Part shown: in pieces, positions 1 through 53,451 of the stretch
Layout: the number at the start of each line of letters is the position of its first letter
Position numbering within the stretch: the stretch's first letter is position 1
Source: Pseudomonadota bacterium
GTDB taxonomy: Bacteria; Pseudomonadota; Alphaproteobacteria; Sphingomonadales; Sphingomonadaceae
Direction: 5' to 3'
NCBI GenBank assembly: GCA_021849075.1
Contig: JAJZTH010000002.1
Coordinates: 162,617-226,616 of the forward strand
DNA length: 64,000 bases
Notes under the pieces: model-generated
What the model was told of the DNA's origin: nothing
What the model saw: only the letters and a program-made list of their open reading frames with translations
The model's database searches: none
Program-made: the position numbers and the translations under genes

Positions 1-671
1 TGGACGATGCGGAGATCAAGTATAGCACCGTCCAGAACTGGTATCCCGGTGATGAGAATGGCAAGGGCGGCATCTATAATTTCGTGACCAAGCGGGCGCT
101 GTGTCAGGGCCGCAACTCCAAGGTCAGCTGGACGCAGGTGGAAACCGGCTCCGCGATTACGTGGAAATATCCGTCCTGCGTGCTGAATGGCGAGAATAGC
201 GTCGGCGAATTTTATTCGGTCGCGCTGACCAACAATCTGCAACAGGCCGACACCGGCACCAAGATGATCCACAATGGCAAGGGGTCGCGTTCGACCATCT
301 TGTCCAAGGGGATCAGTGCGGGCCGGTCGAACAACACCTATCGCGGGCTGGTGCGCGTGGCGCCGGGCGCGGAAGGCGTGCGCAATTTCACCCAGTGCGA
401 TAGCCTGCTGCTGGGCGACCAGTGCGGCGCGCATACCGTGCCCTATATCGAAGTGCGCAATCCCAGCGCCCAGATCGAGCATGAGGCGACGACGTCGAAG
501 ATTTCCGACGATCAGCTGTTCTACGCGATGCAGCGTGGGCTGGATCAGGAAAGCGCGGTCAGCCTGATCGTGAATGGGTTCGCCAAGGAAGTGCTGCAAC
601 AGCTGCCGATGGAGTTCGCGGTGGAAGCGCAGAAGCTGCTGGGCATTTCGCTGGAGGGATCGGTCGGTTGA
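1..671 (+). CDS. sufB: Fe-S cluster assembly protein SufB, C-terminal part (5' end outside window)
   Basis: The reading frame is open from the first bases (codons in phase with position 3) to TGA at 669-671, so only the C-terminal ~223 residues are present. The start of the fragment reads [19 protein letters not shown], a hallmark of the SufB beta-helix core, and later [16 protein letters not shown] and [18 protein letters not shown] are equally typical. SufB is the scaffold subunit of the cytosolic SufBCD complex on which sulfur and iron are assembled. sufC, sufD, sufS, a DUF59 gene and an A-type carrier follow on the same strand. Unusually, a nuclease gene separates sufB from the rest of the operon. 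Confidence 0.95.
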
Positions 672-1159
672 TCGACCAGACACCTCTGGATCAGGCACGC
701 CGCCTAAATTCCCCTCCCCTTCAGGGGAGGGGCCGGGGGTGGGGGCTATCGGCTGGGCGCCTTGACCAATTGGCGGGCTTTGCTCGCGAAATGCGTTGCG
801 AACCGACCGAGCCGGAAAAGCGCCTGTGGGCGAGATTGTCCCGCTCCCAGATCGGTGGCCATAAATTCCGCCGCCAATCGGTGATCGGGCCTTTCATTGT
901 CGACTTCCTCTGTCCGCAAAAGGCGCTAATCGTGGAAGTCGACGGCGATACCCATGTTGCTGGCTCCGACGCGAGCCGCGACCAGGCGCTGCAACAACAA
1001 GGCTATCAGGTCATCCGGATCGCCAATCATGAAGTGATGCAGAATATTGACGGGGTTTGTGCCGCGATCCTCGGCGCGCTTGGACAGGCGCCGCATCGTT
1101 GGGCCAGCCCCCACCCCAACCCCTCCCCTGAAGGGGAGGGGCTTAATGAGGATCAGTAA
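668..1159 (+). CDS. DUF559 (Vsr-like) endonuclease domain protein
   Basis: The domain runs from about residue 42 to 140: [12 protein letters not shown], then GPFIVDF (D79) and [10 protein letters not shown] (E90, D92), then [11 protein letters not shown]. This is the PD-(D/E)XK core of the DUF559 family, distantly related to Vsr mismatch endonucleases; the true substrate is unknown. The chosen TTG start at 668 overlaps the sufB stop and has GGAGG at 654-658. ATG at 791 (Met42) is a credible alternative, because residues 15-31 are encoded by the left inverted repeat rather than by the domain. The C-terminal tail is likewise encoded by the right inverted repeat. The gene looks like a cassette inserted in the suf operon. 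Confidence 0.82.
711..743 (+). repeat. Left terminal inverted repeat of the DUF559 cassette (REP-like)
   Basis: Positions 711-732 form a 22-bp palindrome, CCCCTCCCCT, TC, AGGGGAGGGG, followed by a G-rich tail ending GTGGGGGCT. The same element in opposite orientation is at 1106-1141. Together they bracket the nuclease domain. The repeat is translated in frame, giving the [12 protein letters not shown] stretch at the N terminus of the nuclease. Confidence 0.8.
1106..1141 (-). repeat. Right terminal inverted repeat of the DUF559 cassette
   Basis: The reverse complement of 1106-1141 starts CCCCTCCCCTTCAGGGGAGG and continues with a tail ending GTGGGGGCT. It matches the left element apart from one or two bases in the tail (TT for CC, one G fewer). 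Its GGAGG at 1135-1139 lies six bases before the ATG at 1146, so it can serve as the ribosome binding site of the next gene. Confidence 0.8.
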
Positions 1160-1622: not shown

Positions 1623-2369
1623 ATGCTGACGATCGACACTCTCACCAACGAAATCGACGGCAAGGCGATCCTGAAGGGCCTGTCGCTTCAGATCAACGCG
1701 GGCGAAATCCACGCGATCATGGGGCCGAACGGCGCGGGTAAGTCGACGCTGGCCTACACATTGGGCGGCCGCCCGAATTACGAAGTGACCGGCGGCAGCG
1801 CGACCTTCGAAGGGGCCGACCTGTTCGATATGGAGCCGCATGAGCGGGCTGCGGCCGGCCTGTTTCTGGGCTTCCAGTACCCGGTCGAAATTCCCGGCGT
1901 GTCCAACCTGCAGTTTCTGCGCGAAAGCCTGAACAGCCAGCGCCGCGCGCGCGGCGAGAAGGAACTGAACGGCGGCGAGTTCATCCGTCTGGCCAAGGAA
2001 AAGGCCGGGCTGCTGGGTCTCGACATGGAAATGTTGAAGCGTCCGGTGAATGTCGGCTTTTCGGGCGGCGAAAAGAAGCGCGCCGAAATGGTGCAGATGG
2101 GCATTCTGGACCCCAAGCTGGCGATCCTGGACGAGACGGACTCGGGCCTCGACATCGACGCGCTCAAGATTGTGGGATCGGGCATCAACGCGATCATGCG
2201 CAAGCCGGACAAGGCGGTGCTGCTGATCACCCATTATCAGCGGCTGCTCGATTATGTGAAGCCCGACTTCGTCCATGTTCTGGCCGCCGGCCGGATCGTC
2301 AAATCAGGTGGTCCCGAACTGGCGCTGGAGCTGGAGCGGGAGGGTTATGCCGAGGTGGTGGCCGCGTGA
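1623..2369 (+). CDS. sufC: Fe-S cluster assembly ATPase SufC
   Basis: A 248-residue ABC-type ATPase without membrane domains. Walker A GPNGAGKS is at 34-41, the ABC signature FSGGEKKR near 146-153, and Walker B LAILDETDSGLD around 166-177 with Glu171 as the catalytic base. SufC binds SufB and SufD and powers conformational change during cluster assembly in the cytosol. Its stop overlaps the sufD start by four bases (GTGA), implying translational coupling. Length is normal for the family. Confidence 0.97.
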   Translation: MLTIDTLTNEIDGKAILKGLSLQINAGEIHAIMGPNGAGKSTLAYTLGGRPNYEVTGGSATFEGADLFDMEPHERAAAGLFLGFQYPVEIPGVSNLQFLRESLNSQRRARGEKELNGGEFIRLAKEKAGLLGLDMEMLKRPVNVGFSGGEKKRAEMVQMGILDPKLAILDETDSGLDIDALKIVGSGINAIMRKPDKAVLLITHYQRLLDYVKPDFVHVLAAGRIVKSGGPELALELEREGYAEVVAA

Positions 2370-17270: not shown

Positions 17271-19559
17271 GTGGCCGATCAGGAAAAAACAGGACGCAAG
17301 ATACAGGTCGCCAATGCGCGGCCGGAGGATGCAGGGCGCGGACTTGCGCGATTGCCGCTGGCGGTGATGGCCGAATTGCAGCTGGCCGAAGGCGATGTGA
17401 TCGAGATTGCGGGCAAGCGGCCGACCCCGGCGCGGGTGGTGCGCCCCTATAAGGAAGATGAAGGGCTGGACGTGCTGCGCCTGGATGGTTTGCAGCGCGC
17501 CAATGCCGGTGTCGGATCGGGCGACTTCGTCCAGATCGCCCGGGCGGAATCGCGCGCGGCCCAGCGCGTCGTGTTCGCGCCTGCACAAAATAATCTGCGC
17601 CTGCAGGGCAATCCCGAAGCGCTCAAGCGCGTTTTCTTCCAGCGGCCGCTGACCGCTGGCGATGTCGTTGCGACCGCCGGCCAGCAACAGGTGCCCCCCG
17701 GCGACATGCCGCCCCAATTGCGTCAGATGCTGGCCGCGCCGGCCTATGCGTTGCAAGAAATCCGTCTGGTCGTGGTGTCGACCACGCCAAAGGGCATCGT
17801 CCATATCGACGCCGAGACGGAAGTGGAGCTGCGCGCCGAATATGAGGAGCCGCGCGAATCGCGCCGCGCCGACGTCACCTATGACGATGTCGGCGGCATG
17901 GCGGAGACGATCGACCAGTTGCGCGAAATGGTGGAACTGCCGTTGCGTTATCCCGAATTGTTCGAACGGCTGGGGGTCGACCCGCCCAAGGGCGTGCTGC
18001 TGCATGGGTCGCCGGGCACGGGCAAGACCCGGCTGGCCCGCGCCGTCGCCAATGAATCGGACGCCGAATTTTTCCTCATCAACGGGCCGGAGATCATGGG
18101 ATCGGCCTATGGCGAGTCGGAAAAGCAGCTGCGCGAGATTTTCGAGGCGGCGGCCAAGTCCGCGCCGTCGATCCTGTTCATCGACGAAATCGATTCGATC
18201 GCGCCCAAGCGTGGCAATGTGACCGGCGAGACGGAAAAGCGCCTCGTCGCCCAGTTGCTGACGCTGATGGACGGGCTGGAGCCGCGCACCAATCTGGTGG
18301 TCATCGCCGCGACCAATCGGCCCGAAGCGATCGATGAGGCGCTGCGCCGCCCCGGCCGCTTCGACCGTGAAATCGTGGTTGGCGTGCCAGACGAACGCGG
18401 CCGGCGCGAGATATTGGGCATCCACACCCGCGGCATGCCGCTGGGCGACAAGGTCGACCTCGCCGAACTTGCCCGCATGACCTACGGCTTCGTCGGCGCG
18501 GATCTGGCGGCGTTGACCCGGGAAGCGGCGATCGAGACGGTGCGGCGCTTCATGCCGCGTCTCAATCTGGAGGAAGGGACGATCCCGCCCGACGTGCTGG
18601 AGGAATTGTCCGTCACGCGGGAGGATTTCCTGTCCGCGATCAAGCGGGTCCAGCCATCGGCGATGCGCGAAGTGATGGTGCAGGCGCCCAATATCGGCTG
18701 GGCCGACATTGGCGGGCTGGACGACGCGCAGATGCGCCTGAAGGAAGGGGTGGAACTGCCGCTCAAGGACCCCGACGCCTTCCGCCGCATCGGCATCCGC
18801 CCGGCCAAGGGCTTTCTGCTCTATGGCCCGCCCGGCACCGGCAAGACTTTGCTGGCCAAGGCGGTCGCGCGCGAAGCGCAGGCCAATTTCATCGCCACCA
18901 AATCGAGCGACCTGCTGTCCAAATGGTATGGCGAAAGCGAACAGCAGATCGCCCGCCTGTTCGCCCGCGCGCGGCAGGTGGCCCCCACGGTCATCTTCAT
19001 CGACGAACTGGACAGTCTGGTTCCCGCGCGCGGCGGGGGCCTTGGCGAACCGGCGGTGACGGAGCGGGTGGTGAACACCATATTGGCCGAGATGGACGGG
19101 CTGGAGGAATTGCAGTCGGTGGTCGTCATCGGCGCGACCAACCGGCCGACGCTGATCGACCCGGCGCTGCTGCGCCCCGGCCGCTTCGATGAGCTGATCT
19201 ATGTCCCGGTGCCCGATCAGGCGGGGCGAAAGCGCATCCTGTCCATCCACACCGGCAAGATGCCGCTGGCCGACGATGTCGATCTCGATGTGCTGGCGGA
19301 ACAGACCGAACGCTTCACCGGCGCGGATCTGGAAGACCTGGTCCGGCGCGCGGGGCTGGTCGCGCTGCGCCAGTCGCTCAGCGTCGACAAGGTGACGCAG
19401 GCGCATTTCGATGTCGCGCTGGAAGAGACGCGCGCATCGGTGACGCCGGAAATGGAGCGCGAATATGAACAGATCCGGTCGCAATTGAAGCAACGCGCGA
19501 TGCAGGTCGATCCGATCGGTTTCGTGTCGCCCGGCATGTTGTCGTCGCGCGAGGGCTGA
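17271..19559 (+). CDS. Cdc48/p97-type AAA+ ATPase (two AAA modules)
   Basis: A 762-residue protein with the full architecture of archaeal VAT and eukaryotic p97. An N domain (about 1-190) is followed by AAA module D1 (Walker A GSPGTGKT 246-253, Walker B ILFIDEID 301-308) and module D2 (GPPGTGKT 519-526, VIFIDELD 574-581, KWYGESE pore region 551-557). Both modules keep arginine-finger regions (RRPGRFDRE, LRPGRFDEL). Family members are hexameric unfoldases; the bacterial substrate is unknown. The GTG start at 17271 is preceded by AAGGACGGGG. A palindrome follows the stop. Confidence 0.92.
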   Translation: MADQEKTGRKIQVANARPEDAGRGLARLPLAVMAELQLAEGDVIEIAGKRPTPARVVRPYKEDEGLDVLRLDGLQRANAGVGSGDFVQIARAESRAAQRVVFAPAQNNLRLQGNPEALKRVFFQRPLTAGDVVATAGQQQVPPGDMPPQLRQMLAAPAYALQEIRLVVVSTTPKGIVHIDAETEVELRAEYEEPRESRRADVTYDDVGGMAETIDQLREMVELPLRYPELFERLGVDPPKGVLLHGSPGTGKTRLARAVANESDAEFFLINGPEIMGSAYGESEKQLREIFEAAAKSAPSILFIDEIDSIAPKRGNVTGETEKRLVAQLLTLMDGLEPRTNLVVIAATNRPEAIDEALRRPGRFDREIVVGVPDERGRREILGIHTRGMPLGDKVDLAELARMTYGFVGADLAALTREAAIETVRRFMPRLNLEEGTIPPDVLEELSVTREDFLSAIKRVQPSAMREVMVQAPNIGWADIGGLDDAQMRLKEGVELPLKDPDAFRRIGIRPAKGFLLYGPPGTGKTLLAKAVAREAQANFIATKSSDLLSKWYGESEQQIARLFARARQVAPTVIFIDELDSLVPARGGGLGEPAVTERVVNTILAEMDGLEELQSVVVIGATNRPTLIDPALLRPGRFDELIYVPVPDQAGRKRILSIHTGKMPLADDVDLDVLAEQTERFTGADLEDLVRRAGLVALRQSLSVDKVTQAHFDVALEETRASVTPEMEREYEQIRSQLKQRAMQVDPIGFVSPGMLSSREG

Positions 19560-53414: not shown

Positions 53415-53451
53415 CCCACCCCCTAACCCCCGCACGCCAGCGGGAGAGGGG
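53415..53451. repeat. REP-like palindrome related to the DUF559 cassette ends
   Basis: Left arm CCCACCCCCTAACCCCCGC, loop ACGCCA, right arm GCGGGAGAGGGG. Read on the minus strand it has the same layout as the cassette ends at 711 and 1106: a CCCCTCYCC start, then a G-rich arm ending in GGGTGGG. No nuclease gene is attached here. It lies six bases past the rmuC stop. Confidence 0.55.

Follow-up and report, generated by a model that had tools for sequence, protein, structure and literature searches.

The presence of a small nuclease gene between two inverted palindromes in the middle of a suf operon raises the question of what connects such a gene to such repeats, and whether the one has a part in the spread of the other. 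The locus lies in a window of 64,000 nucleotides, by which we mean the whole stretch of DNA analysed, from a genome of the family Sphingomonadaceae (G000; 3.67 Mb in 66 contigs, 95.6% complete).

A DUF559 gene between inverted palindromes in the suf operon

An ORF for a Vsr-like nuclease of the DUF559 family (PF04480) occupies positions 668-1159 of the plus strand, as identified from the ORF list, Pfam and the translation. The profile covers residues 35-138 with an E-value of 5.9e-32, and DUF559 is the only Pfam match of the protein apart from MTES_1575, which lies below the cut-off. The gene is bracketed by two REP-like units, each consisting of a 22-nt palindrome of the form CCCCTCCC..GGGAGGGG and a G-rich tail that points inward. 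On the left, the palindrome CCCCTCCCCTTCAGGGGAGGGG (711-732, no strand assigned) is followed by the tail CCGGGGGTGGGG (733-744, plus strand), and on the right a tail that reads TTGGGGTGGGGG on the minus strand (1108-1119) precedes the palindrome CCCCTCCCCTGAAGGGGAGGGG (1120-1141, again without strand); the palindromes were located by an inverted-repeat search and an exact palindrome check, and the tails by the same search and by reading the sequence. The two arms, 711-744 and 1108-1141, are 34 nt long each and 88% complementary, which bears out the initial annotation in its description of near-identical palindromic elements bracketing a DUF559 gene in opposite orientation.

The same annotation had described the unit as splitting sufB from sufC. 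The operon is indeed interrupted, after the 3' part of sufB (3-671, plus strand, PF01458), but sufC (1623-2369, plus strand, PF00005) does not adjoin the unit, since an ORF at 1161-1616 of the plus strand intervenes. This ORF has no match in Pfam or NCBIfam at E 0.001 (scans from 1149), and the name sufC is based on operon position and on a match to the annotated sufC of a Sphingomonas parapaucimobilis locus (L300). The start of the intervening ORF is present in those sufB loci of the genus that were read; the ORF is absent from L300 and apparently also from L313. The repeats had further been claimed to be translated into both ends of the protein. The reading frame is open across both palindromes, but the start codon is unsure: TTG 668 overlaps the stop codon of sufB, and translation could instead begin at TTG 770. 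Of the genus genes with a detected left repeat, 75 of 101 have a frame that stays open across it, and of those with a detected right repeat, 82 of 94 do. What had been taken for a related repeat without the gene, at 53415-53451 (minus strand), is a REP without a gene, but a degenerate solo unit of another subfamily, with the type I tail GGTTAGGGGGTGGGC.

The DUF559 domain (770-1081, plus strand) contains the residues E16, D45, E56, D58 and H62 (E, D, E-x-D, H; numbered from 770), which are invariant in an alignment of 12 diverse members, and profile comparison matches the protein to 3hrl (3.7e-36) and to 3r3p, a 'mobile intron protein' (2e-4) that we take to be I-Bth0305I. The Pfam profile and the conserved acidic and histidine residues together place the protein among the DUF559 / PD-(D/E)XK, EDxHD nucleases. 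Only weak partial matches were obtained in the PADLOC library of defence systems, PHROGs matches were weak as well (one is named homing endonuclease), and a structure model from the single sequence was poor (mean pLDDT 47.4).

Palindromes and gene-less pairs in the same genome

Exact CCCCTCCC(N4-12)GGGAGGGG palindromes occur 88 times in G000, and a reversed-pattern control 0 times. Each of the four DUF559 genes detected in G000 lies between palindromes whose tails point inward. With 88 palindromes in 3.67 Mb, the chance of finding one is about 0.6% per 250 bp and, assuming independence, about 1.6e-18 for all eight flanks of the four genes; the bracketing is therefore not due to chance. The remaining palindromes often form inverted pairs without a gene, similar to REPINs, and 20 such units that were read measure 95-143 bp. 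A short multicopy palindrome that often forms inverted pairs about 100 bp apart is a repeat of the REP/REPIN kind.

The gene-less units sort by eye into three sequence types, to which three of the four DUF559 units were assigned by inspection of core and tail: L002 to type I, L004 to type II, and the window unit (L003) to type III. No constant GTAG or CGTC tag was seen by eye in 40 REPIN ends and 8 ends of DUF559 units; a few type I ends read GTAG at a GGGG/TAGCG junction, and others CAGCG or CGGCG.

Many gene-less REPINs of G000 (L217, L220, L225, L227-L232, L235-L249) stand between GGTGGTTTCCTGCCAT and ATGTCCGCTTCTGGCC/(A)TGTCCGCTTCTGGCC, or close variants of these, and the motifs GGTGGTTTCCTGCCAT / (A)TGTCCGCTTCTGGCC also border other palindromic repeats (L243, L273). 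The frame points either to a larger composite element or to a landing site in common. No unfilled copy of the GGTGGTTTCCTGCCAT/ATGTCCGCTTCTGGCC frame was present in 853 kb of fetched loci or among the left-motif matches of G000 (30 of 38 fetched), and the right motif at up to three mismatches is no commoner than its control (35/41 vs 34/39). In one case, genome G029 has both frame and REPIN, and G021 has neither. In some loci a second palindrome is nested at or inside a REP (L228, L232, L233, L007, L105, and L301 of Azospirillum brasilense Sp7 near 18795), for example as TTGATGGGAG..CTCCCATCAA beside the REP or as a 60-bp insert within the REP loop.

Bracketing of DUF559 genes across the genus and the phylum

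DUF559 genes and REPs are partners well beyond this genome. A DUF559 gene is present in 37 of the 41 genomes of the genus, and 108 of 299 genomes of the phylum Pseudomonadota have a match, some of them weak. From the genus, 113 of 138 matches were fetched and 111 analysed (L027 and L121 were too short), a set that leaves out most partial matches and the suf copies of other genomes; from the phylum, 70 loci were fetched (the 30 best matches and 40 chosen from the list) and 68 analysed (L065 and L198 were too short), with low-scoring matches under-represented. Allowing one mismatch, a palindrome lies within 250 bp of the gene in 175 of these 179 cases, compared with 7 of 179 control windows placed a further 1 kb away (109/111 in the genus with 3 control hits, 66/68 in the phylum with 4). 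Both sides carry one in 140 of the 179 (95 and 45) and a single side in 35; genes without a detected repeat, far from being the majority, number four. Under a strict test (arm of 8, perfect CTCCC palindrome, within 250 bp) the counts are 104/111 and 59/68, with one control hit each. Reading the 16 strict-test misses by eye revealed variant or imperfect palindromes in 14, the exceptions being L211, which is without a clear repeat, and L064, where one side alone carries palindromes, of a different sequence.

The bracketing REPs are inverted, judged by their tails, in those that were read. In a motif-free test of 33 loci, the longest inverted match between left and right flanks averages 15.7 nt within a gene and 10.1 nt between genes. 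Flanking palindromes were also seen by eye in plasmid records of Azospirillum brasilense, where the palindrome is on the left side only within about 220 bp, of Sinorhizobium meliloti (pSymB) and of Sphingomonas parapaucimobilis. In S. meliloti pSymB (L299) the DUF559 gene is flanked on each side by a REP pair with tails directed away from that pair, unlike in Sphingobium. The DUF559 gene ycjD of Escherichia coli (L094, 6408-6761) has no palindromes at its flanks, and is possibly an orphan or domesticated member of the family.

Co-variation of protein and repeats, and maintenance of the gene

Protein and REP sequences co-vary. For the 64 genes in which REPs were detectable to the left and to the right, protein and REP identities are correlated over 1901 pairs from different sites (rho 0.28, Mantel test 0 of 500 permutations); the correlation weakens when each of the 27 sites is represented by a single gene (rho 0.21, 30 of 2000 permutations). 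The left and right REPs of one gene are 84% alike, compared with 69% between genes. In being flanked by REPs that co-vary with its protein, the DUF559 gene is RAYT-like. It is also maintained: the median dN/dS is 0.145 over 171 same-site pairs from 13 sites (pairs with dS of 0.05 to 1.5; the suf site is not among the 13), and by this comparison of sequences the gene is under purifying selection.

Dependence of the palindromes on DUF559

Such palindromes are scarce in genomes that lack DUF559. Over the 41 genomes of the genus, the number of DUF559 genes correlates with the net number of palindromes (Spearman rho 0.76, kinship not corrected), and the four genomes that lack the gene have net counts of -2, -2, 10 and 3, against a median of 38. 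Counter to this trend, G031, without DUF559, has 10 forward matches against 0 in the control, and G034, with one DUF559 gene, has 6-9 against 3-6. In the phylum, CCTCTCCC(N2-8)GGGAGAGG palindromes occur in 36 of 40 genomes with DUF559 and in 7 of 40 without (Fisher p 4e-11, likewise uncorrected for kinship), and in the Alphaproteobacteria alone the corresponding fractions are 22/25 and 3/20. These 40 and 40 genomes were picked from the list of DUF559 matches, 20 of the negatives by their absence from it, and the reversed-pattern control gave 0 in 79 of the 80 and 3 in G183. Exceptions run in both directions, since four genomes with DUF559 are without the searched palindrome and two without DUF559, G058 and G191, have 13 and 8. 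The dependence extends to the REP signature of the suf type: additional copies are dispersed in 10 of the 13 genomes that carry a suf DUF559 gene (30 copies) and in 6 of 28 others (7 copies; Fisher p 0.0014 without kinship correction); the 28 include two genomes without a sufB match, G016 and G019.

History of the suf copy and turnover of the units

The 111 genus copies occupy 34 sites. In a tree of 121 rows and 106 columns, obtained by a quick method and with many unresolved forks, the site labels change 35 times, compared with a minimum of 33 and a shuffled mean of 95. Since the site groups are nearly one clade each, insertion appears to be rare and inheritance mostly vertical with loss. Two clades of the tree hold near relatives at five sites each.

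The suf copy is not at the same place in all relatives: by coordinates, a DUF559 gene lies beside sufB in 13 of the 39 genus genomes with a sufB match. Eleven of these 13 sequences entered the tree, where all form one clade. A copy at sufB with identical 22-nt palindromes is found in records named Novosphingobium, Sphingobium (two), Sphingomonas and Microvirga, with 59-80% protein identity, and Sphingomonas parapaucimobilis carries a suf copy as well; the Novosphingobium and Microvirga records do not count as independent genera, since, for example, the Microvirga and Sphingomonas records have identical flanks. Judging from these sequences, the suf copy is old and mostly vertically inherited, and a recent insertion into the operon is disfavoured by the single clade and by the presence of the copy in Sphingomonas. 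Given one clade, and the same place and palindromes in other records, its absence in relatives is at least partly due to loss.

REP units turn over at this junction and elsewhere. The 30 sufB junctions of the genus that were read hold a DUF559 unit in 11 cases, CGTC-type REPs, assigned to this class by resemblance and distinct from the DUF559 repeats, in 11, neither in 7, and a scar in one (G021). The sufB gap is a hot spot, occupied by a DUF559 unit, by CGTC-type REP dimers or by other small inserts (G005, G017, G030). Compared with G029, the G021 scar shows no difference in its right flank and a single base difference in its left; a 409-bp unit is missing from palindrome to palindrome, and one palindrome is kept with 2 of 22 bases changed. 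Loss is likelier here than a site never filled, since the suf clade is common to more distant relatives. The scar would fit cutting between the palindromes and could also be an ordinary deletion between 22-nt repeats. When G015, G029 and G021 were compared (96.1 and 95.0% identity over 227 and 246 kb of alignment), CTCC-type palindromes were involved in 2 of the 11 and 3 of the 16 mid-size differences in length. Among three strains of A. brasilense, 3 of 10 pairwise mid-size differences were automatically flagged as having palindromes and three more were placed at or inside them by eye; a fourth strain, TSH58, was compared separately. Gene-less pairs as well as the gene-bearing unit are thus gained or lost among close relatives, and the presence or absence of REP units differs between genomes at about 93-96% identity. 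No target-site duplication was seen by eye at the polymorphic units found, whose junctions are not clean.

Comparison with known repeats and nucleases

A dedicated REP enzyme is, to our knowledge, known for the GTAG class only. In RAYT-REP (REPtron)/REPIN systems the REPs are described as GTAG-tagged (PMC3116915, PMC3733652, PMC8266576), and the recognition of REPs is treated in one of these sources (PMC8266576). The DUF559 system has in common with them a REP-flanked gene, gene-less inverted REP pairs of about 100 bp, and co-variation of enzyme and REP. It differs in its enzyme, a Vsr-like PD-(D/E)XK/EDxHD nuclease in place of a HUH tyrosine transposase, and in its REP, a C/G-rich palindrome that carries a GGGGTGGG-type tail on its inner side and lacks a constant GTAG; a further difference is that mobilisation in the DUF559 system is putative. 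CGTC-tagged REPs form palindromic dimers that are common in Alphaproteobacteria, and are described as apparently without a transposase of their own (PMC3733652). They are palindromic and paired like the DUF559 repeats but differ in sequence (CGTCATGC..).

EDxHD homing endonucleases such as I-Bth0305I (PMC3943268) resemble the window protein in the profile match to 3r3p (E 2e-4) and in being small nucleases tied to mobile DNA, whereas the DUF559 unit has no intron, no apparent extra DNA-binding region, palindromes at its flanks and dispersed gene-less pairs. Caulobacter VsrA, which has a DUF559 domain, is reported to underlie a DNA-damage response and is predicted to act in mismatch repair as an endonuclease linked to a cytosine methyltransferase (PMC12907096); VsrA and the Vsr mismatch endonucleases belong to the same superfamily, and the window gene differs in sitting among suf genes and in its association with REPs. 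The units share with MITEs the form of short inverted-repeat elements, the type III gene-less pairs having GGTGGGGGCTATC in common with the end of the window unit, and differ in that neither a DDE transposase nor a target duplication was seen.

What spreads the repeats

We favour, at a probability of roughly 60%, the reading that the window unit is the gene-bearing form of a REP/REPIN-type repeat family whose dedicated enzyme is DUF559, RAYT-like in its role but unrelated and of the Vsr/EDxHD type. The initial annotation had suggested that DUF559 proteins might act in parallel to RAYTs, and the data uphold it in so far as the palindrome has a counterpart in DUF559, while mobilisation of REPs by this enzyme is a step that we infer. 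Its description of the window unit as minimal and non-autonomous is not supported, since a unit bearing the DUF559 gene would be the autonomous form and the gene-less pairs of 95-143 bp the non-autonomous one. Mechanistically, DUF559 would bind its own REP, probably as a hairpin, and cut beside it, and the cutting would lead to REP pairs being copied or moved to new places. The gene itself may persist in few copies and in a partly domesticated state, seldom moving together with its REPs, in which it would resemble the RAYTs of GTAG-type REPs; that it rarely moves is suggested by the stable sites, with their 35 label changes against a minimum of 33.

Among the alternatives, the gene could be a selfish gene of the homing type that cuts REP pairs lacking it and is copied into them by repair, in which case REPINs would be its targets and not its offspring. 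The position of the gene inside a REP pair and the match to the mobile intron protein 3r3p agree with such a role; targets, however, should outlast the loss of the gene, and the REPs are nearly gone from most genomes without DUF559, while most sites look as if they had been occupied once and then inherited, so that we regard homing as improbable. A similarly low likelihood attaches to host housekeeping, with DUF559 as a nuclease of repair or regulation for which REPs serve as sites of binding or processing, and with some other factor spreading the REPs. The low dN/dS (0.145), the long persistence at suf and other sites and the reported part of Caulobacter VsrA, with its DUF559 domain, in the DNA-damage response (PMC12907096) would suit a housekeeping role, which nevertheless leaves unexplained why the gene lies between REPs that match it in sequence, and RAYT, the one other spreader tested, does not fit.

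That RAYT (HUH) transposases spread the REPs, with DUF559 as a hitch-hiker, is conceivable in that PF01797 (Y1/RAYT-type) genes occur in 12 of the 41 genus genomes. Yet a profile search of the 95.6% complete G000 returned no PF01797 match in a genome with 88 palindromes, palindrome counts in the 41 genomes do not differ with the presence of PF01797 (p 0.35), and the two of 13 PF01797 loci that were fetched are both without these REPs; we attach next to no weight to this possibility. Scarcely more credible is an association by chance or insertion bias, in which REPs and small dispensable genes would both land in intergenic gaps. Both are intergenic and sufB junctions do hold other inserts, but such a bias is at odds with palindromes at 175 of 179 genes compared with 7 of 179 control windows, and with the match between left and right REPs, the co-variation of protein and REP and the dependence at the level of genomes.

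Going further than a dedicated enzyme of the repeat family, DUF559 may represent a class of mobilising enzyme that is new, a Vsr-like nuclease which, by cutting REP hairpins, spreads a superfamily of REP pairs found across the Pseudomonadota. The RAYT-REPIN lifestyle would then have been invented a second time, by an enzyme of unrelated fold; we put the chances of this reading at even. A literature search that had preprints and most subscription papers outside its scope yielded no published report of a link between DUF559 and REPs.

REPINs have been called one of the most common families of bacterial repeats (PMC8049555), and for CGTC REPs a survey of 2013 came upon no enzyme dedicated to them (PMC3733652). 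A partnership of DUF559 with REPs that spans the phylum and is matched in sequence would assign a function to a family of 'unknown function', make the origin of CTCCC palindromes testable at the bench, and explain the protein ends that are encoded by repeats, such as those of the 82 genus genes, out of 94 with a detected right repeat, whose frame continues across it. If DUF559 does spread REPs, REP-spreading enzymes would have arisen at least two times, from different folds.
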